This document shows, piece after piece, positions 8,271 to 18,628 of a stretch of 34,638 bases of DNA; position 1 is the stretch's first letter; every line of letters begins with the position of its first letter. The DNA comes from Bacteroidota bacterium (GTDB lineage: Bacteria; Bacteroidota; Bacteroidia; Bacteroidales; Bacteroidaceae): the NCBI GenBank assembly GCA_023458215.1, contig JAEXAJ010000099.1, forward strand, positions 1 to 34,638. The letters are read 5' to 3'. A program made the position numbers and the translations under genes. Under the pieces are notes generated by a model. That model saw only the letters and a list, made by a program, of their open reading frames with translations, did no database searches and was not told the DNA's origin.

Positions 8271-9848
8271 TTAATCTTTCAAGTTATATTCCTTTTCGCA
8301 AAGCTTTTGCTCTTTCCATTTTGAACATAGCTTTTCTAATCGTTTACTGAAATTATCGTAGTTCTTTCGCTTTTCGTTTGTCCAACCCAATTCTGCGTAT
8401 GCGGCAATCCTAGGAAAAATATGCTTGTAAGTTTGTTCGGGAGTGGCATTGAACTCAGACCAGGAAGCAGAAGAAATGCCTAAGACTTTAGTTCTCAGTT
8501 CGGATGGTAATTGTGCCGGAACCAGTTCTCTTTTATAAATCTGTGGAATAGAAGCATTGAAATAGGCAAAGTCAGAATGCGACTGTAGTACATGCTGTGA
8601 ATGTTCCAGGCAATACTTCAAGTCGTTGTAATCTCCTTGCCAATATTGGGCGATTGTACCTTCTGCCATATTAACTTTCATCTTGGACGGTTTATTGTAT
8701 TTGCCGATAATATCGCACCAGCCAATCATGTTCTTTCCCTTATTCTTCAAGTACCAGGATATTTGATTGAAGAACCAAATTTGCAGTTCATAATCTTCAG
8801 TAATCTTTAGACTTTTCTTCAGTTCTTGAACACTTTCAGAGTTTTTCCAATGGTCACCGAGGAACTCATCACCTCCTACATGAATATATTTTCCGGGAAA
8901 TAATGTGGATACCTCATCCAGAACATCATATATGAACTCCATAGAAGTATTCTTGGATGGATCAATCACTTCGTCCATTACACCTAAATTGCAAGCTACA
9001 CTTACTTTTTTACCTGTAGTCCCCAAGTAGGGATAGGATGCAATGGCGGCAGTGGTATGTGTCAGTATCTCTATTTCAGGAACAATTGTAATATGAAGCT
9101 TTCCCGCATAGTCTATAATCTCTTTGATATCCTCTTGGGTATAAAAACCTGAATGCGGCTTACCATCCCACTTATTATGTACCCACGGCCAATCGTACCC
9201 GCAATTTATCTGAGTTGAATCTCTTTTGGATCCAATCTCAGTGAGCAGAGGATATCTCTTAATCTCAATTCTCCATCCTTGGTCATCTGTTAAATGCCAA
9301 TGGAAAATGTTCAACTTTAATTTAGCCATTTCAGAAAGCAATGTCTTTACAGTTTCCTTTCCTTTGAAATAGCGTCCTTCGTCAAGCAGCACTCCCCGCC
9401 ATGCGTATTGGGGATAATCTAAGATTTCAACGCAAGGAATACTTGCTCCGGATGAATTCACTTCCATTAATTGATTCAATGTTTGAATAGCATAAAACGC
9501 TCCTTCCGGTGTCAATGCGCTAATTGCAACAGACTGCTTGTTGACGCTTAACGTATAACCTGTTCTATTCTCTACGGGTAACTTATCGACCAATAAGATC
9601 TTGATAGTTTTAGAGGATTTATCTGTTAAGGGAATATTGAAGCTCTCTTTTATAAAAGCTTTCAGATAAGTAACCTCATTGGAAAACATCCGGTCTGCTT
9701 CAATAGAAGTTTCGGATGTCAATTGGAAAAAGCCCGCTTTCTCTACTATAGAATAAGGCAATGGAGTAATAGCATATTTATGGGCGGAGAGCTGAGCTAC
9801 AAAAAAAAGAAAAAGCAACGTTATTTTGATAGTTCTATTCATATCCAT
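8271..9848 (-). CDS. GH20 beta-N-acetylhexosaminidase, divergent paralogue
   Basis: A 525-residue exported protein; the signal peptide runs from M1 (or M3 at 9842) through FLFFVAQLSA. It has the GH20b lead domain, then FHWHLTDDQGWRIEIKRYP at 182 and HVGGDE at 323-328, with catalytic D327-E328 intact. The usual E-I-(D/E)-M-P-G-H block is altered to EIEILTH near 258; the histidine is kept but MPG is replaced. A Trp-rich insertion, WPWVHNKWDGKPHSG, follows residue 219 and should lie near the substrate pocket. These changes suggest a linkage or aglycone preference different from that of the second GH20. It is the first enzyme gene after susD, separated from it by a 60-bp gap with a stem-loop. Substrate: terminal beta-HexNAc by family; the exact sugar is unknown. 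Confidence 0.93.
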   Translation of the reverse strand: MDMNRTIKITLLFLFFVAQLSAHKYAITPLPYSIVEKAGFFQLTSETSIEADRMFSNEVTYLKAFIKESFNIPLTDKSSKTIKILLVDKLPVENRTGYTLSVNKQSVAISALTPEGAFYAIQTLNQLMEVNSSGASIPCVEILDYPQYAWRGVLLDEGRYFKGKETVKTLLSEMAKLKLNIFHWHLTDDQGWRIEIKRYPLLTEIGSKRDSTQINCGYDWPWVHNKWDGKPHSGFYTQEDIKEIIDYAGKLHITIVPEIEILTHTTAAIASYPYLGTTGKKVSVACNLGVMDEVIDPSKNTSMEFIYDVLDEVSTLFPGKYIHVGGDEFLGDHWKNSESVQELKKSLKITEDYELQIWFFNQISWYLKNKGKNMIGWCDIIGKYNKPSKMKVNMAEGTIAQYWQGDYNDLKYCLEHSQHVLQSHSDFAYFNASIPQIYKRELVPAQLPSELRTKVLGISSASWSEFNATPEQTYKHIFPRIAAYAELGWTNEKRKNYDNFSKRLEKLCSKWKEQKLCEKEYNLKD

Positions 9849-9908: not shown

Positions 9909-11699
9909 TTACCAGAAAACGGTTTGTGTCAGATTCTCATTTATCGTAAATTGTGATTTCGGAATCGGGAAGTAATAATACTTCGGTTCTTCAAATTTGC
10001 GCGTTGCCGAGTTCACTTCAGTTGATGCCATAATATAACCGTGATCTTTTTCAGAAAGACAAATGGCGGTTTGGGAACCGGACTTCTCTTTCATGTAATA
10101 GAATACATATTTACTGCGATCAGACTCCGGTACCGTGTTTGTAGCTTCGCTTTCAAATACACCTACATCAGCAATGCCGTCTCCGGTAAAGTCATGTAAT
10201 CCAAATTTATCAATGTAGACTCCTTGCTGTATTTCTTCAAAAAGCTTGCCGGCTTTCCATCTCATTAAATCATCATACCGAAGATATTCACAAGCAAACT
10301 CAATTCTACGTTCCCTCCGAATTTCAAGGAGAATATTCTTTTGAGCACCTGTTACATTCGGATACTGTTTCTCTAAATTTTTGTTTAGTTCTAAAGAAGA
10401 TAATTGAATAGCAGGCATATCTACTCTGCTCCTTACCAAATTGATTGTTGCATCCAAATCAGCTTGCGTTAATATTCCCAATTCCGCTTTGGCTTCGGCA
10501 TAGATAAAAAGGATTTCGGCATATCGCATGATTGGAATATCATTATATGAACGGATCCAATCCATTTGATCGGCTGTTTTAGCTACAAACTTGGTTTGAG
10601 GATATCCGCCCAAATACAAATTTGGAACAAAAGGCTTATTCTCTCCCGGACGAATATAGCCTGGATACATGAATGTTTGCTTATAACGAGGATCCCTATT
10701 CTTAAAAGTTTCAGTCATCGACATCTTCTCATAACCGGGAACTGAAGTGAAAGGTATTGCTTTACCATTTTCTATATATTCATAGTTCTCCATTAAACTA
10801 CGACTCAAACTGCTAACATAGCTAAATACCCTTCGGGATGCATCGTGCTTTATGTTTTGCTTATCATCGAAGTCTTTGAATATAATGATTTCAGGACTTG
10901 TAGCTAAGTTATCACTCGTGAATAGATTCTCATAAGCTTGGTCTGCACCTCCGGTTTTGTCAATAGAAAACAGTTGACTTTCCATTACTTTTTCACAAGC
11001 CTTGATCGCTTTTTCATAGTAAACGTTAGCAGTGTTTTCCATTTTTAACTCATCGTGGTATTTCCTGAAAGAAGCCTCGTGCAAAGCTATTCTTGCCAGC
11101 AGACTGTAAGCATACCATTTACTAATTACCGTTTTATTTTTCATATCCGTAGATATGTTGTTGGCTGCATAGTCTAAGTCCGCAAAAACAGAATCGACAA
11201 CAAGCTCACGACTGTCTTTTTTCTTGTACAGCAAATCGATATCCGTATCTTTAATTGAAACGGAATACCAAGGAACTTCATTGTAGCGTTTAACCATATC
11301 ATAATACCATTGTGCACGCATCAAACGGGCAATCCCGATGTAATTATTGATATTGCTGGCATTCCCCTCAGTCTTATATACATTTTCAAGTAAGACATTG
11401 TATCTGCGCAGCTTCTTCCACTGATCCCATCCCTCTACAGAGGCAGTAGTAATACCACCATGCATCATATTCACGATTTCCGTTGGTTCTGAATAAATGG
11501 AAGCATTATCAGTTGCATAATCTAAATAGTAGTAAGGCAAATCATTATAGAATGTATTAGTGTATAATTCTAAGTCCTTTTCTGTTTTAAAGTAAGTTTT
11601 ATCAGACAGATCTGTATCCGGATATCTTTCTAAAAAAGAGTCATTGCAACTCGTTAGGAGTAATCCGAATAATAAGCATGCATATTTATTTACTTTCAT
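9909..11699 (-). CDS. SusD-family outer-membrane glycan-binding lipoprotein
   Basis: A 596-residue lipoprotein; the signal ends in LLTSC with Cys18 lipidated. The N-terminus CNDSFLERYPDTDLSDKTYFKTEKDLE is characteristic of the RagB/SusD family. It continues with helices (IARLMRAQWYYDMVKRYNEVPW), the MRYAEILFIYAEAKAELG block near 390, IRRERRIEFACEYLRYDDLMRWKAG, and the closing FPIPKSQFTINENLTQ. It would bind the target glycan at the surface and form the lid over its SusC partner, whose gene ends 12 bp upstream. It is divergent from the SusD at 1-1376, which fits a different substrate. It is slightly longer than many SusDs, with an extra segment near 510-560 (DKFGLHDFTGDGIADVG) that resembles a calcium-binding-type DxDG loop. 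Confidence 0.96.
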   Translation of the reverse strand: MKVNKYACLLFGLLLTSCNDSFLERYPDTDLSDKTYFKTEKDLELYTNTFYNDLPYYYLDYATDNASIYSEPTEIVNMMHGGITTASVEGWDQWKKLRRYNVLLENVYKTEGNASNINNYIGIARLMRAQWYYDMVKRYNEVPWYSVSIKDTDIDLLYKKKDSRELVVDSVFADLDYAANNISTDMKNKTVISKWYAYSLLARIALHEASFRKYHDELKMENTANVYYEKAIKACEKVMESQLFSIDKTGGADQAYENLFTSDNLATSPEIIIFKDFDDKQNIKHDASRRVFSYVSSLSRSLMENYEYIENGKAIPFTSVPGYEKMSMTETFKNRDPRYKQTFMYPGYIRPGENKPFVPNLYLGGYPQTKFVAKTADQMDWIRSYNDIPIMRYAEILFIYAEAKAELGILTQADLDATINLVRSRVDMPAIQLSSLELNKNLEKQYPNVTGAQKNILLEIRRERRIEFACEYLRYDDLMRWKAGKLFEEIQQGVYIDKFGLHDFTGDGIADVGVFESEATNTVPESDRSKYVFYYMKEKSGSQTAICLSEKDHGYIMASTEVNSATRKFEEPKYYYFPIPKSQFTINENLTQTVFW

Positions 11700-11711: not shown

Positions 11712-14700
11712 TTAAAATGATAAGTTTAAACCAAATGAAAAGATTCTCTGCATAGGATGGCTTGTGCCCAAGATTTCCGGGTCATAATTCTTTGATAGTT
11801 TAGTGAACTCAAAGATATTATCGCCAGTCAGATAGAATCTTACTCTTTCTAATCGAGCTTTCAAAGTCAACTCTTTTGGCAAAGTATATCCAATTGTTAT
11901 ATTCTTGATACGCAAGTAAGAAGCATCTTGCAAATAGCGAGTTTGGTTGATAGCAATATCCTTTCCTCCTTCTGCAATATACGACTTTAGTCTTGGGAAG
12001 TATGCATTCGTATTCTCTGGCGTCCAGTGATCTAAATTGTTTTCAAGTACGTTTGCCCAAGGAGCTCTATAAATACCAAAGAAGTAATTGCTCTCGGGAT
12101 ACCAGTCTTTTTTACCAACTCCCTGTAATAAAATCCTTAGGTCAAAGCCATTCCAGTCTGCCGAAAAATCGGCTCCATAGTTATAACGATCAGCAGTATT
12201 TCCAATCACTGTATAGTCGCCCGAATCATTTACAGTCCAAGAACCACTATTAATTTTCTTATCGCCATTCAGATCTTTATATTTCAAGTCTCCGGGTTGA
12301 ATAGGTCTATCACCGGGATAAGCAGTTACATCCCATTGATCTGCATGACTGTCAATGTCGGCTTGGTCAATAAAGAAACCTTCTGTTACTAGTCCCCAAA
12401 TATTGCCTATTTCTTGTCCTGCACAATAGTCGTTCAGATTACCTGTCGGGTTATCGAATTTCGTAATGTAAGAACGACTATCAGACAAAATAAATCTGGC
12501 ACTGTAATTAAAGGGCTTACCTTGCAGAGTAAAAGCATCTCTCCAACCCAAAGACACTTCCCAGCCTTCGGTTTTCATATCGGCAGCGTTTATTTTGGGT
12601 TCGGATGTACCTAATACATTAGGTAATGTCTTTCCTTTGGTCAACATATCTTTGGTATCTCTACGGTAAATATCACCCGAGAAGGTTAACCTGTTGGCTA
12701 AGAAATTCAAGTCGAGCCCTAAGTTTTGGGTGTAAACTTTCTCCCAAGTCAATGCACTGGATACCAATCCACTTGGATCAACGCCCATAGGTTTACTCCC
12801 ATTGAGGAGTAATTGTTGTTCACCGGATCCCATGCTGGCAATATATTCATAGTAGCCTACATCTTGATTACCCAATGCTCCATAAGAGACTCTTAATTTA
12901 GCATGACTCAACCAACTTTGTGTAGCTTCCATAAATTTCTCTTGGGTAATGATCCAAGCGGCAGATACAGAAGGGAAGAAACCGAAACGGTCATTCTTGG
13001 GGAATCTAGAAGAACCATCGTAACGTCCATTAGTTTCCAAAATGTACTTATTGTTGAACATATAGTTCAAACGGAAAAATCCACTGCGGGTTGCCCATTC
13101 GTAATTTTCTTCCCTGACACGTGCAGCACCGGTGGCTAACTCTACGCTAGGAAGTGTGGAGCTAATCAGTTCTTCACGTTCACCTCTCATATATTTATGA
13201 CTATTGTATTCTTGATTAAATCCAACCAAAGCAGTCAAACTATGTTTACCGAAAGACTTATTAAAATCCAAATAGGCATTTAAGCTAATGTATTGTTCTC
13301 TTTCTTTCTCAAGCTTTGCTATATCCACCCATCCGAGTGACTCTTCGCCAAGATTAGGACCCTGTTTATAAGGAATGTTCATATCAGTGTCCCATTGATC
13401 GGTTTCTTTATTTCCTAAACGGGCAGTTGCATCGGCTTTCACTGAAAGAATATTTTTAATCAAAGACATATCCAGTGTAAATTGCGATTGAAGATTCAAC
13501 TCTGTTGTAGTGGCTTGCCCTTCGGACAAAGAACCAATGAGTTCAGCTCCTTCTTTAGTCCATGAGCCATCAGGGTTTTTAACAGTCATCAATGTATTGG
13601 TATTATTGATACGTTTAAATAGCCAAGAAGAGAAAGTACTCGGCCTTTTATAAGTGTAATATAAGGCAGAAGTGTTATTACCGAAAGTCAACCAGTCAGC
13701 TACTTTAAAATCTACTTTTGTTCGTAGATTGTAACGATCCATAATGTCCTTGTTGATTTTCAAAAGACCTCTTTCTTGCATATATTCCATACCGACATAG
13801 TAGGATGCTTTATCGGTAGCACCAGATAAACTAAGATTATGAGAATGAGTAATACCCGTTTCATCATAAATTTCAGAGAACCAATCTGTATTACCCAAGT
13901 AAGTGTAATATTCAGGATTGCTGAAACTGGGAATCACATTGGGTTTGCTGGGATCTTTCTTCATCTCTTCGATATATTTCAAGTCTTCATCAGAATAGAG
14001 ATCATACCAAGGTTTGCCCATTTCTTTCTTGTAACTGGCTTGAATATAAGGATCCTTCACTATTTTGGGCATGCGTCCCAGTTTGCGCAAACTAATTGAG
14101 TTGTTAAACTCAACTCTAATCTTCTCACTTTTAATTCCTTTCTTTGTGGTAACCAAAATGACACCGTAGGCAGCTTTTGCTCCATAAATAGCGGCCGAAG
14201 AGGCATCCTTCAATACCGAAATATTCTCAATATCCGAGCTGTTCATTCTACTAAAAATGGAAGCATCAGTAGGAATACCATCTATTACAATAAGGGGGCT
14301 CCCTCCATTGATAGAAGTTTCACCACGTACATTGAATTCAGGAACAGAGTTGGCTTGACCGTCACCAATAGAGATATTCAAGTTGGGCACAATTCCTTGC
14401 AACATAGTCCCGATACTGTTAGTAGCTCTATTGGCCAACACTTTTCCACCTACAGCTTCTACGGCTCCACTTAAATTTACTTTTTTTTGTGTTCCATAGC
14501 CTACTACAACTACTTCATCAAGCGATTCTGCATCAGTAATCATTGTGATGTTAATACGATTGCGACTACCTATTGTCAGCTCTTGCTTCTTCATGCCGAT
14601 ATAGGTAATCACTAGAACTGTTTTATCATCAATGTTACCCGCAATCATATAATTGCCATCTACATCAGTGATAGTACCGTTATTAGTACCTTTTACCGAA

Positions 14701-15158
14701 ACACTGACGCCAATCAACGGTTCTCCTGTTTCATCTATAATTTTGCCAGTCACAGTCTTTGTCTGTTGGACAACAGCTGTTTTATCTATCGCTTTATTTG
14801 AAAGAACAATATGTGTCCCTTCCATCGTATAATGCACATCGGTATCTTTAAACAGATCATCCAAAACTTTAGATACCGGAGTTTCTTTCACTTTAACTGA
14901 AGCTTTTTGCTGAGTATCTACATGAGAGTTGATAATAAACAGATAATCTGTCTGATTCTCTATTTCATTCAGTATTACTTCTAAGGTACTATTACTCTTT
15001 GACAAGGTAATTCTGGCATTCTGCGAATGCGTATTTCCTGCATATAAGCTGAATACAGACACAAAAGTCAGGAACAGTGTGATTTTCATAATCTTAAAAA
15101 TACGGTTAGTTCGTAATTTTTGGGGATATAAAGTGCCCCACAAAGAAATTTTATTCAT
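11712..15158 (-). CDS. SusC-family TonB-dependent glycan transporter with STN signalling domain
   Basis: A 1148-residue outer-membrane receptor. An extended signal region (MKITLFLTFVSVFSLYA from residue 24) leads into an STN domain at ~48-122, then a carboxypeptidase-D-like regulatory domain (VTGKIIDETGEPLIGVSVSV from 136). The TonB-box/plug region follows (DEVVVVGYGTQKKVNLSGAV at 214) and then the beta-barrel, ending in the typical SFGLNLSF with terminal Phe. It imports oligosaccharides using TonB energy. The STN domain is what transducing receptors use to contact FecR-type anti-sigma factors, and the fecR and sigma genes lie directly upstream, so this protein is probably both transporter and sensor. 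Start 15158 keeps the YPQKLRT leader seen in many Bacteroides STN-SusC proteins; an internal ATG at residue 24 is the alternative. The leader overlaps a putative antisense RNA. Confidence 0.96.
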   Translation of the reverse strand: MNKISLWGTLYPQKLRTNRIFKIMKITLFLTFVSVFSLYAGNTHSQNARITLSKSNSTLEVILNEIENQTDYLFIINSHVDTQQKASVKVKETPVSKVLDDLFKDTDVHYTMEGTHIVLSNKAIDKTAVVQQTKTVTGKIIDETGEPLIGVSVSVKGTNNGTITDVDGNYMIAGNIDDKTVLVITYIGMKKQELTIGSRNRINITMITDAESLDEVVVVGYGTQKKVNLSGAVEAVGGKVLANRATNSIGTMLQGIVPNLNISIGDGQANSVPEFNVRGETSINGGSPLIVIDGIPTDASIFSRMNSSDIENISVLKDASSAAIYGAKAAYGVILVTTKKGIKSEKIRVEFNNSISLRKLGRMPKIVKDPYIQASYKKEMGKPWYDLYSDEDLKYIEEMKKDPSKPNVIPSFSNPEYYTYLGNTDWFSEIYDETGITHSHNLSLSGATDKASYYVGMEYMQERGLLKINKDIMDRYNLRTKVDFKVADWLTFGNNTSALYYTYKRPSTFSSWLFKRINNTNTLMTVKNPDGSWTKEGAELIGSLSEGQATTTELNLQSQFTLDMSLIKNILSVKADATARLGNKETDQWDTDMNIPYKQGPNLGEESLGWVDIAKLEKEREQYISLNAYLDFNKSFGKHSLTALVGFNQEYNSHKYMRGEREELISSTLPSVELATGAARVREENYEWATRSGFFRLNYMFNNKYILETNGRYDGSSRFPKNDRFGFFPSVSAAWIITQEKFMEATQSWLSHAKLRVSYGALGNQDVGYYEYIASMGSGEQQLLLNGSKPMGVDPSGLVSSALTWEKVYTQNLGLDLNFLANRLTFSGDIYRRDTKDMLTKGKTLPNVLGTSEPKINAADMKTEGWEVSLGWRDAFTLQGKPFNYSARFILSDSRSYITKFDNPTGNLNDYCAGQEIGNIWGLVTEGFFIDQADIDSHADQWDVTAYPGDRPIQPGDLKYKDLNGDKKINSGSWTVNDSGDYTVIGNTADRYNYGADFSADWNGFDLRILLQGVGKKDWYPESNYFFGIYRAPWANVLENNLDHWTPENTNAYFPRLKSYIAEGGKDIAINQTRYLQDASYLRIKNITIGYTLPKELTLKARLERVRFYLTGDNIFEFTKLSKNYDPEILGTSHPMQRIFSFGLNLSF

Positions 15159-15165
15159 ATCTTTG
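15158..15165 (+). promoter_or_regulatory. Bacteroides -7 box on the strand opposite susC
   Basis: TATCTTTG matches the Bacteroides housekeeping -7 consensus TAnnTTTG exactly. It points away from susC and would start an RNA near 15170-15174. No TTTG is seen at the usual -33 distance, so only half of the promoter is supported. On the other strand it covers the susC start codon and its upstream CAAAG. Confidence 0.5.
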
Positions 15166-15171
15166 TAATGC

Positions 15172-15253
15172 TTTAATAATTAATACGGTTATTAGATAAT
15201 TGTGTTAATGGAGAGTGCTGACACGCGACCAAACTTGTCAGCATTCTTTTTTT
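15172..15253 (+). ncRNA. Putative cis-antisense small RNA against the susC leader
   Basis: An ~80-nt RNA is predicted between a perfect -7 box (15158-15165, + strand) and an intrinsic terminator (15213-15253, + strand). No + strand protein gene is nearby, so the terminator needs another transcript to serve. The RNA would be fully complementary to the susC mRNA leader just upstream of its start codon. Antisense RNAs at this position repress susC homologues in Bacteroides PULs with sigma/anti-sigma control (the DonS type in B. fragilis). The 5' end is estimated from the -7 box and could shift by several bases. Confidence 0.55.
15213..15253 (+). terminator. Intrinsic terminator on the + strand in the susC leader
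   Basis: The core TGCTGACA (15216-15223) pairs with TGTCAGCA (15236-15243), extended by three further pairs including one G-U; the loop is 12 nt. It is followed on the + strand by TTCTTTTTTT. On the - strand the run lies before the stem, so the terminator is directional and does not serve fecR or susC. Confidence 0.75.
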
Positions 15254-15299
15254 ATTAACTAAGAGTGTGTATTTTCATCAGTATTTTATCATAGGCAAT

Positions 15300-16922: not shown

Positions 16923-16950
16923 AAACTGCCTAAGGCTTCTCAGGCAGTTT
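16923..16950. terminator. Terminator after the flotillin gene
   Basis: AAACTGCCT at 16923-16931 is the exact complement of AGGCAGTTT at 16942-16950, with a 10-nt loop. On the - strand TTTCTATTTTTA follows, suiting the flotillin transcript. On the + strand TTTTCTTTTTT follows, so it could work both ways. It isolates the flotillin operon from the sigma gene. Confidence 0.8.
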
Positions 16951-16969: not shown

Positions 16970-18604
16970 TTATTTCTTCTTCGGTTCCGGAGCCTCTTCC
17001 GTCTTTTCTTCCGGATGAATAATATTCTTCACCGTCTCTCCGATAGGCAACTTATCGAGTACTCCGAGACTCGGAGCAACCGTTTTCACCAATGAACTCA
17101 GGAAGTTGCTTGTACCACCGTTACCACCGTCGAATACAGTGATGTTTCCTAAGTTGATATGTTCGAATGCCTTCACTTGTTCGCCGGCAATCTCCTTCCA
17201 CTGGTCTACCATCTTGTATTGGATGGCGATGGCAGGATTCGATTCGGCGGCTCTCACCATGGCTTCGAAACCTTCGGCTTCGGCCAGCAACGATTTCTTC
17301 TTACCATCAGCTTCAGCCTCCAACTTCATGCGGATAGCTTGCGCCTCTGCCTGGGCTTGGGCAAGCATTGCCTTTGCACGTGCCTCGGCTTCACGGGTTA
17401 TTTTCTCGGCAACGGCATCCGCCTGCAGAACGGCTTCCTGCTTGGCTATCTCTGCCGGCACAATCTTTTCGGCTTTCAAAGAAGATTCTACTTTGCGGGC
17501 TTTAGCTTCTTCCACTTCTTTTTGGGCTATTTCGCGGGCCGTTTGCACCGATGCTTCCGAACGGGCGGCAGCTTCACCGGATTGCTTATCGGCAGTAGCC
17601 TGCGTCACGGCAAGTTCTGCATTAGACTGAGCAATGGCTTTCTGAGCTTCGTTTCGTCCGATGGCCGCTTTCTTGGCAGCTTCGGCCTGTTTGATTTCCA
17701 TATCGGAGTTCAGTTCGGCAATGCGGCTTTCTTTTTCGGTGTTGGCTTGTTCAATGCGGATGTTCTTCTCGGCTTCGGCCTTGGCAACCTGCGATTCCTT
17801 CTCGGCATTGGCAACGGCTACTTGCGAGATACGGTCTTTGTCGGCATTGGCTACCGAGATCTCTTGCAGTTTCTTGGTCTCGGCAATGGCGATGTCCTGG
17901 TCTTTGCGGGTTTCGGCAACCTTTGTTTCGCGTTCTTTGATCTGAGTGGCAATCTTAATAGCACCCAGTTTCTCCTGTTCCTCAATATTAGCCTGAGCCT
18001 CGTTTTGCGCTTTACTCTCGGCTTCCTTACCCAAGTTGACGATATAATTGGCAGCATCACGGATATCACTGATATTGATATTCATCAGATAGAGACCGAA
18101 CTTGCGCAGTTCCGTATCGATATTGTCTTTTACTTTGGACAAGAACTTATCACGGTCGGAGTTCAACTCTTCAATCGTCATATCAGCAATAACCAGACGC
18201 ATCTGACCATAAACTACATCGGTAATCAAGTTTTGTTTGTCGTCCATCGTCAATCCCAGCATACGTTCGGCAGCATTCTGCATGACCTCGGGATCGGTAC
18301 TGATAGCTACTGTAATCGTTGTCGGAACATCCACACGGATATTCTGTGCAGACAAAGCACCGGTCAGCTTACAATCTATCTGCATGGGCTTCATGGACAA
18401 GAACTCATATCCTTGGATAATGGGCCAAACAAACGCAGCGCCACCATGATATAACTTGGCTGATTTCTTATCGCCTCCTGTCTTACCATATACTACCAAA
18501 ACCTCGTCACTCTTACACTTGCGATAACGCGAAAGTATACCGATAAAAGTGAGCAGAACGACCGCAATCAGTATGGCGGCCATAATCATCATTTCTTGTG
18601 TCAT
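16970..18604 (-). CDS. Flotillin-like SPFH/band-7 membrane protein
   Basis: A 544-residue protein with one N-terminal membrane helix (MMIMAAILIAVVLLTFIGIL, ~5-24), an SPFH/band-7 domain at ~30-205 (VPTTITVAISTDPEVMQNAAERML, RKFGLYLMNINISDI), and a long Ala/Glu/Lys-rich coiled coil at ~205-470 with repeated AxxEAEA-type patterns. The C-terminus has a Gly-rich stretch and a charged tail EEAPEPKKK. Flotillins form ring-like scaffolds in the inner membrane and organise membrane microdomains and fluidity. The NfeD-like gene is 24 bp upstream, matching the YuaF-YuaG pair of Bacillus. The coiled-coil part produces long open frames on the opposite strand, which are not genes. The cellular role in Bacteroides is not established by the sequence. 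Confidence 0.93.
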   Translation of the reverse strand: MTQEMMIMAAILIAVVLLTFIGILSRYRKCKSDEVLVVYGKTGGDKKSAKLYHGGAAFVWPIIQGYEFLSMKPMQIDCKLTGALSAQNIRVDVPTTITVAISTDPEVMQNAAERMLGLTMDDKQNLITDVVYGQMRLVIADMTIEELNSDRDKFLSKVKDNIDTELRKFGLYLMNINISDIRDAANYIVNLGKEAESKAQNEAQANIEEQEKLGAIKIATQIKERETKVAETRKDQDIAIAETKKLQEISVANADKDRISQVAVANAEKESQVAKAEAEKNIRIEQANTEKESRIAELNSDMEIKQAEAAKKAAIGRNEAQKAIAQSNAELAVTQATADKQSGEAAARSEASVQTAREIAQKEVEEAKARKVESSLKAEKIVPAEIAKQEAVLQADAVAEKITREAEARAKAMLAQAQAEAQAIRMKLEAEADGKKKSLLAEAEGFEAMVRAAESNPAIAIQYKMVDQWKEIAGEQVKAFEHINLGNITVFDGGNGGTSNFLSSLVKTVAPSLGVLDKLPIGETVKNIIHPEEKTEEAPEPKKK

Positions 18605-18628
18605 AAATTTGTGTATTTAATTCTGTTT

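Follow-up and report, generated by a model that had tools for sequence, protein, structure and literature searches.

Why should the leader of a susC gene hold an intrinsic terminator and an apparent promoter element that both point against the direction of the gene? The question is raised by the window, by which we mean the whole 34,638-nucleotide stretch of DNA analyzed here. An initial annotation of the window had proposed an ~80-nt plus-strand RNA complementary to the susC leader, and comparison with related loci supports this proposal: the stretch in question very probably encodes a cis-antisense RNA of ~82 nt, a predicted repressor of susC of the DonS kind. Glycan-uptake loci number in the dozens in gut Bacteroides, and it is only partly known how the ones controlled by ECF sigma factors stay off. 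The setting of an ECF sigma factor, FecR, and an STN-type SusC, also described in the annotation, was found again with Pfam for the sigma factor and FecR (Table 1). Beyond the minus-strand GH20 gene lie a rhamnosidase-type gene and then a second GH20 gene, which makes two GH20 genes and one rhamnosidase-type gene in the locus. The best-named relative of FecR is from Bacteroides rodentium (85% identity), which makes a Bacteroides the probable source of the window. A strong minus-strand terminator (positions 16923-16950) separates the flotillin-like gene from the ECF sigma gene.

Table 1. Features of the susC locus and of the predicted antisense RNA gene in its leader
Feature	Positions	Strand	Basis or remark
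GH20 gene, same locus as susC	8271-9848	-	ORF + Pfam
susD gene	9909-11699	-	ORF + Pfam
susC, the predicted target (STN, CarbopepD_reg, plug, barrel; 1148 aa)	11712-15158	-	ORF + Pfam
Inverted repeat CAAAGA / TCTTTG around susC start codon	15141-15165	.	Side feature; minority of the family at most
-7 promoter element TATCTTTG (TANNTTTG) of the predicted antisense RNA	15158-15165	+	Exact match
Predicted cis-antisense RNA, ~82 nt	15172-15253	+	Fold and covariance-model match; 5' end placed from the box, to within a few nt
5' hairpin, 14 pairs (3 G-U)	15179-15209; arms 15179-15192 and 15196-15209	+	Fold; helix 1 of the family
Intrinsic terminator	15210-15253; stem 15210-15223 with 15236-15249; seven-T run 15247-15253	+	Fold; helix 2 of the family
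GCCTATG element and micro-ORF (ATG ATA AAA TAC TGA, 15292-15278)	15278-15296	-	Upstream of the antisense-covered region
FecR anti-sigma gene, 310 aa	15300-16232	-	ORF + Pfam
ECF sigma factor gene, 185 aa	16326-16883	-	ORF + Pfam

Within the window, the box TATCTTTG is present exactly where the annotation had placed it. It shares one base with the susC ATG (15158-15156, minus strand), its first base being opposite the A of ATG, and it matches the -7 element TANNTTTG(Y) of promoters of the housekeeping sigma factor (sigma-ABfr). There is no TTTG at -33 in the window, as the annotation had said. TANNTTTG occurs in the window at chance density (33 sites, 32.5 expected), so the case rests on comparison with other loci; its sense counterpart CAAANNTATG occurs 10 times, with 2.5 expected.

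The terminator that the annotation had put at 15213-15253 is real, with a stem slightly larger than described. It can work only on the strand opposite susC, as claimed, for on the susC strand the hairpin is not followed by a T-run. There is no evident protein gene on the plus strand that would need it either: the nearest upstream plus-strand ORF listed (13839-14099, 86 aa) lies within susC in antisense. A generic terminator scan, which allows loops of up to 8 nt, did not list this terminator; the loop here exceeds that limit. Between box and terminator sits a 5' hairpin that is absent from the annotation. The predicted RNA folds with -29.2 kcal/mol on the plus strand (z -6.4, none of 200 shuffles equally good), compared with a z of only -2.6 for the opposite strand, because the G-U pairs of the plus strand turn into A-C on the other.

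For the comparison, FecR homologues led to 80 named loci, and further loci were taken from 158 genomes of the genus of G001 (Bacteroides salyersiae, judged by the locus from which it was reached). Removal of 23 duplicates and of 3 leaders without a long downstream ORF from a total of 218 left 192 leaders; 2 of these, with gaps of >450 nt, were not folded, leaving 190 for the folding counts. These leaders, relatives within a single FecR subfamily, do not count as independent cases, and size was the criterion by which the long ORF following FecR was called susC, without a one-by-one check. Places at contig ends (G126:C92, G046:C45, G118:C56, G093:C41, and G081:C11) were left out.

The promoter box recurs in this set with the same geometry. 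CAAANNTATG (antisense TANNTTTG) is found at the susC start in 159 of the 192 distinct FecR-linked leaders, at the first ATG of the frame in 149 and at a later in-frame ATG in 10, and the exact box is missing in 33. The last base of TANNTTTG pairs with position -7 and its first base with the A of ATG. Eleven dinucleotides occupy the two free positions of the box, with no G in 156 of the 159, and the base after the box is T or C in 157. The pattern fits the TANNTTTGY promoter element (PMC12632263), and the same 156 of 159 obey at the free positions the stricter TAHHTTTG rule of Flavobacterium johnsoniae promoters (PMC6847099). Among mechanically called ORFs of the named loci and the window, only 3 of 343 other ORF starts carry the motif. 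The family alignment shows no conserved TTTG at -33, and the -33 motif is described as "much less evident" in F. johnsoniae promoters (PMC6847099). The annotation was right about the absence of the -33 box, which it had called the weak point; because the absence is family-wide, it is a smaller weakness than it looked.

Conservation of the terminator stem in related loci, on which the annotation had let its proposal depend, is evident: 160 of the 190 leaders have an antisense terminator hairpin at or below -12 kcal/mol, with 0.2 expected from dinucleotide shuffles, compared with none on the sense strand (1 at -10). No terminator of -10 or better was found in 28 of the 190. The distance from the end of the box to the end of the hairpin has a median of 82 nt (5 to 95% range, 76 to 100; n = 145 leaders with both). 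Box and terminator occur together (145 leaders with and 14 without a terminator among those with the box, 17 and 14 among those without it; Fisher P = 5e-6), and box, spacing, and terminator combined exceed chance by comparison with other loci. Both elements are present in 61 of 77 named loci, including 10 of 12 in Bacteroides, 9 of 12 in Parabacteroides, 12 of 12 in Proteiniphilum, 11 of 14 in Tannerellaceae MAGs, 3 of 5 in Tannerella, and 2 of 4 in Alistipes; in Dysgonomonas, the box is present in one of four loci and the terminator in all four.

To which susC genes does the RNA belong? In genome G020, which we take to be that of B. fragilis NCTC 9343, 53 susC regions were considered, 2 of which were dropped for want of an ATG. 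The box occurs at 9 of its 15 FecR-linked susC genes and the terminator at 8, with 7 having both, whereas none of the 36 susC genes without FecR has either. With 20 regions from G001 added, the 73 regions were reduced to 56 FecR-free leaders by dropping FecR-linked, ATG-less, and early-start ones, and neither element was present at the first ATG of any of these 56. Since the elements are absent from all 56 FecR-free leaders and present in the majority of the FecR-linked ones, we conclude that the predicted antisense RNA is tied to FecR-linked susC genes, though not to every one.

We then asked for covariation in an alignment, A2, of 60 RNAs less than 80% alike, drawn from 139 that have the box, the terminator, and the spacing. 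In the 5' hairpin (helix 1), 86.7% of cells are paired and 6 of 8 pairs show both-side changes; its sequence was not selected for folding, but its register had been fixed by eye on the window. The terminator (helix 2) is paired in 94.9% of cells, with both-side changes in 11 of 11 pairs, a statistic biased by the choice of terminators for folding. The whole structure does better than all 500 shuffles on four of five measures, the fifth being reached by 2 of 500, and also beats all slid versions of itself. In a second alignment, A3, comprising 37 of the 60 RNAs chosen by hand and leaving out the window, L001, L130, and 20 more divergent members, RNAalifold predicts both helices without the hand-made structure (94.8% pairing in helix 1, 92.8% in helix 2). 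As to the strand, G-U cells in the terminator number 86 when read antisense versus 7 when read sense. For the 5' part, unselected for folding, the antisense strand gives the better fold in 143 of 145 cases, and for the leader it does so in all 60. In three loci with longer leaders (L147, L197, and L149), the predicted antisense RNA has an extra hairpin ahead of the usual two.

A covariance search of related sigma-linked susC leaders, suggested in the annotation, recovers the site. Model R2, built from A3 and hence without the window, L001, and L130, has a single match in the window up to an E value of 10, at 15173-15250 on the plus strand (38 bits, E = 7.1e-5), and both helices covary. On 44 named loci outside the model, several of them close to loci inside it, R2 finds 36 antisense matches after FecR at E ≤0.1, with four further matches elsewhere or on the other strand. 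At this threshold, it misses L002, L018, L026, L051, L071, L074, L080, and also L001, the closest relative of the window among the loci compared. Over the 53 susC regions of G020, R2 has antisense matches in 8 FecR-linked ones and two sense-orientation matches (L251 and L272) in others. The L251 match (695-764, E = 0.0014) lies in sense ~250 nt upstream of a susC gene without a detected FecR. Model R1 marks 8 places in G020 at E ≤1, of which 7 are antisense between a FecR-like and a susC-like ORF and the eighth (E = 0.88) is beside unrelated ORFs. Genome-wide, R1 has matches in at least 10 of 295 genomes of the order (15 candidates scored per genome) and at least 5 of 395 genomes of the phylum (11 candidates scored per genome); these are lower bounds that say little on spread, as the B. 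salyersiae orthologue in G001 was missed though it is in the model.

Taken together, these comparisons argue that the antisense RNA gene at 15172-15253, as predicted from sequence, is real and conserved and that its anatomy is a fixed one, made up of the box, the spacing, two covarying hairpins, the strand, and the linkage to FecR and susC. What was a single guess has become a family with a covariance model.

Among known systems, the closest are the DonS-type RNAs, of which DonS itself was reportedly described by Cao et al. 2016. They belong to polysaccharide utilization loci (PULs) under ECF sigma/anti-sigma control, as in the window. They are antisense to a susC homologue, just as the window RNA lies opposite the susC 5' region, and the intrinsic terminator and the PUL setting are common to both. 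Plasmid-type cis-antisense RNAs such as CopA/CopT are like the window RNA in being short, structured, and fully complementary to the controlled leader. FopS and GibS (RF04319 and RF04182) are, like it, short Bacteroides RNAs, and FopS represses susC mRNAs near the start codon (PMC11697453), as is proposed here for the window RNA; unlike it, with its two hairpins, they are trans-encoded, share a 5' seed, and carry a single terminator hairpin. Published lengths of DonS-type RNAs are 78 to 128 nt (PMC7366714), a range that includes the ~82 nt between the predicted ends in the window. By position, length, terminator, and setting, and not by sequence, the window RNA is best filed with the DonS-type PUL-associated antisense RNAs.

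Expression is documented for DonS, from B. fragilis, and for related antisense RNAs in the same position, and DonS acts as a repressor of its locus (PMC7366714, PMC10994844, PMC11697453) by a mechanism stated to be unknown (PMC11697453). For B. thetaiotaomicron, first 10 (PMC7366714) and later 32 (PMC10994844) antisense RNAs associated with PULs have been annotated, and northern blots confirmed five and two of them, respectively. Expression of these RNAs correlates both negatively and positively with that of their PULs (PMC10994844), and because some pairs correlate positively, repression need not hold for every member of the family. The portions of this literature that we drew on contain no report of an overlap between -7 box and start codon, of a covarying two-hairpin fold, or of such an RNA in Parabacteroides, Dysgonomonas, Proteiniphilum, or Alistipes loci.

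How might the RNA act? The housekeeping sigma factor would start it from the -7 box, which overlaps the start codon of susC; the intrinsic terminator inside the susC leader would end it, giving an RNA fully complementary to the susC mRNA 5' leader from ~14 to 95 nt before the ATG. As long as FecR holds the ECF sigma factor, the antisense RNA would be made and would pair with stray susC leaders, and the pairing could block the start of susC translation or expose the duplex to cleavage. Once a glycan frees the sigma factor, sense polymerases would run over the antisense promoter; since this promoter lies within the susC start, strong sense transcription should silence it. Two overlapping, opposed transcription units would thus form an off/on switch. 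The prediction is precise, in that one and the same DNA should serve as antisense promoter and as start codon of the target, and this would make point-mutation tests of antisense control possible in any such locus.

Other readings of the leader have to be weighed against this one. The terminator might be a mere shield that keeps stray antisense transcription from susC out of fecR and the sigma gene, in which case the short RNA would be a by-product. For that purpose, the terminator alone would suffice, and 17 of the 31 leaders without an exact box do keep it; however, this would leave unexplained why a promoter box sits at the start codon, why the spacing is fixed at 82 nt, and why the first hairpin is conserved and covaries, which makes a shield improbable. 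We give still less credence to a sense element, by which CAAANNTATG would be a translation signal or part of a start-codon hairpin of the mRNA and the leader structure would act in susC mRNA. An inverted repeat does surround the ATG in the window, T at -1 is common at other susC starts too, and pairing around the start exceeds that in permutations (3.52 versus 3.22 pairs, 0 of 2,000; 0.003 outside the GA class), with relatedness not removed from this comparison. But this pairing signal is weak, and six pairs are possible in only 29% of 58 nonredundant starts, for which reason we rejected a sense hairpin around the ATG as a general explanation. A at -3, the favorable base for translation in this phylum (PMC6847099), is present in only 14%. 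The rarity of the motif at other ORF starts, the better antisense fold of all 60 leaders, and a terminator hairpin that has no T-run on the sense strand also speak against a sense element.

Least credible of all, to the point that we would be surprised by it, is a trans-acting small RNA of the FopS/GibS kind. FopS RNAs bind near susC start codons (PMC11697453), and weak Rfam matches to both families lie nearby, yet both candidates failed by a wide margin, FopS (RF04319) with 22.1 bits against a gathering score of 56 and GibS (RF04182) with 22.5 bits against 115. The FopS match, moreover, falls within susC, ahead of the promoter box, and resembles the opposite strand of a FopS target site more than it does a FopS gene. 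No Rfam family reaches its gathering score anywhere in the window, and permissive searches of it brought up only weak FopS/GibS and other matches. As an observation in its own right, the strand opposite the second susC ATG (15079-15110, plus strand) resembles the FopS 5' seed (Rfam consensus, below the cutoff), and susC may be a FopS target.

The sense leader holds a further conserved element, on the upstream side of the stretch that the antisense RNA covers. An exact GCCTATG occurs in 113 of the 190 FecR-linked leaders, a median of 28 nt upstream of the antisense terminator and ~120 nt before susC. In 99 nonredundant cases, the frame of its ATG stops after a mean of 3.1 codons, versus 15.2 and 14.2 codons in the other frames; a stop follows within 8 codons of the ATG in 97 of 99, defining micro-ORFs of 1 to 9 codons. 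We considered GCCTATG as the -10 element of a sense promoter, but the frame-specific stop codons favor translation instead. An A-rich stretch is present 16 to 11 nt before the ATG, and such a stretch also precedes start codons in this phylum (PMC6847099). The element shows no linkage to the antisense terminator (Fisher P = 0.26). One-base variants included, it is found in 8 of the 56 FecR-free susC leaders, compared with 1.07 expected, all eight from G020. Our literature search brought up no report of a GCCTATG micro-ORF, which is no proof that none exists.

Together with the antisense RNA, this element suggests, tentatively and as a reading that we would not yet favor, a three-part leader of FecR-controlled susC genes across Bacteroidales: a micro-ORF translated in a frame of its own (GCCTATG and up to 8 codons, ~120 nt before susC), a two-hairpin antisense RNA after it, and an antisense promoter merged with the start codon of susC. 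Transcription in sense and initiation in antisense would be mutually exclusive, and the ribosome on the micro-ORF would decide the access of the antisense RNA to the leader. If this were true, the micro-ORF would be a so far unnamed control element, present also at some FecR-free susC genes. The conserved micro-ORF adds a second, unexpected, and testable layer to the antisense RNA.

Two further features of the window concern gene starts. SusC has an extension of 23 codons (15087-15158, minus strand) ahead of another in-frame ATG (15089), at which the signal peptide appears to start, and this N-terminal extension is common to many relatives. At the start of the flotillin-like gene (18602-18611), CAAATTTATG (antisense TAAATTTG) is another possible antisense -7 box.
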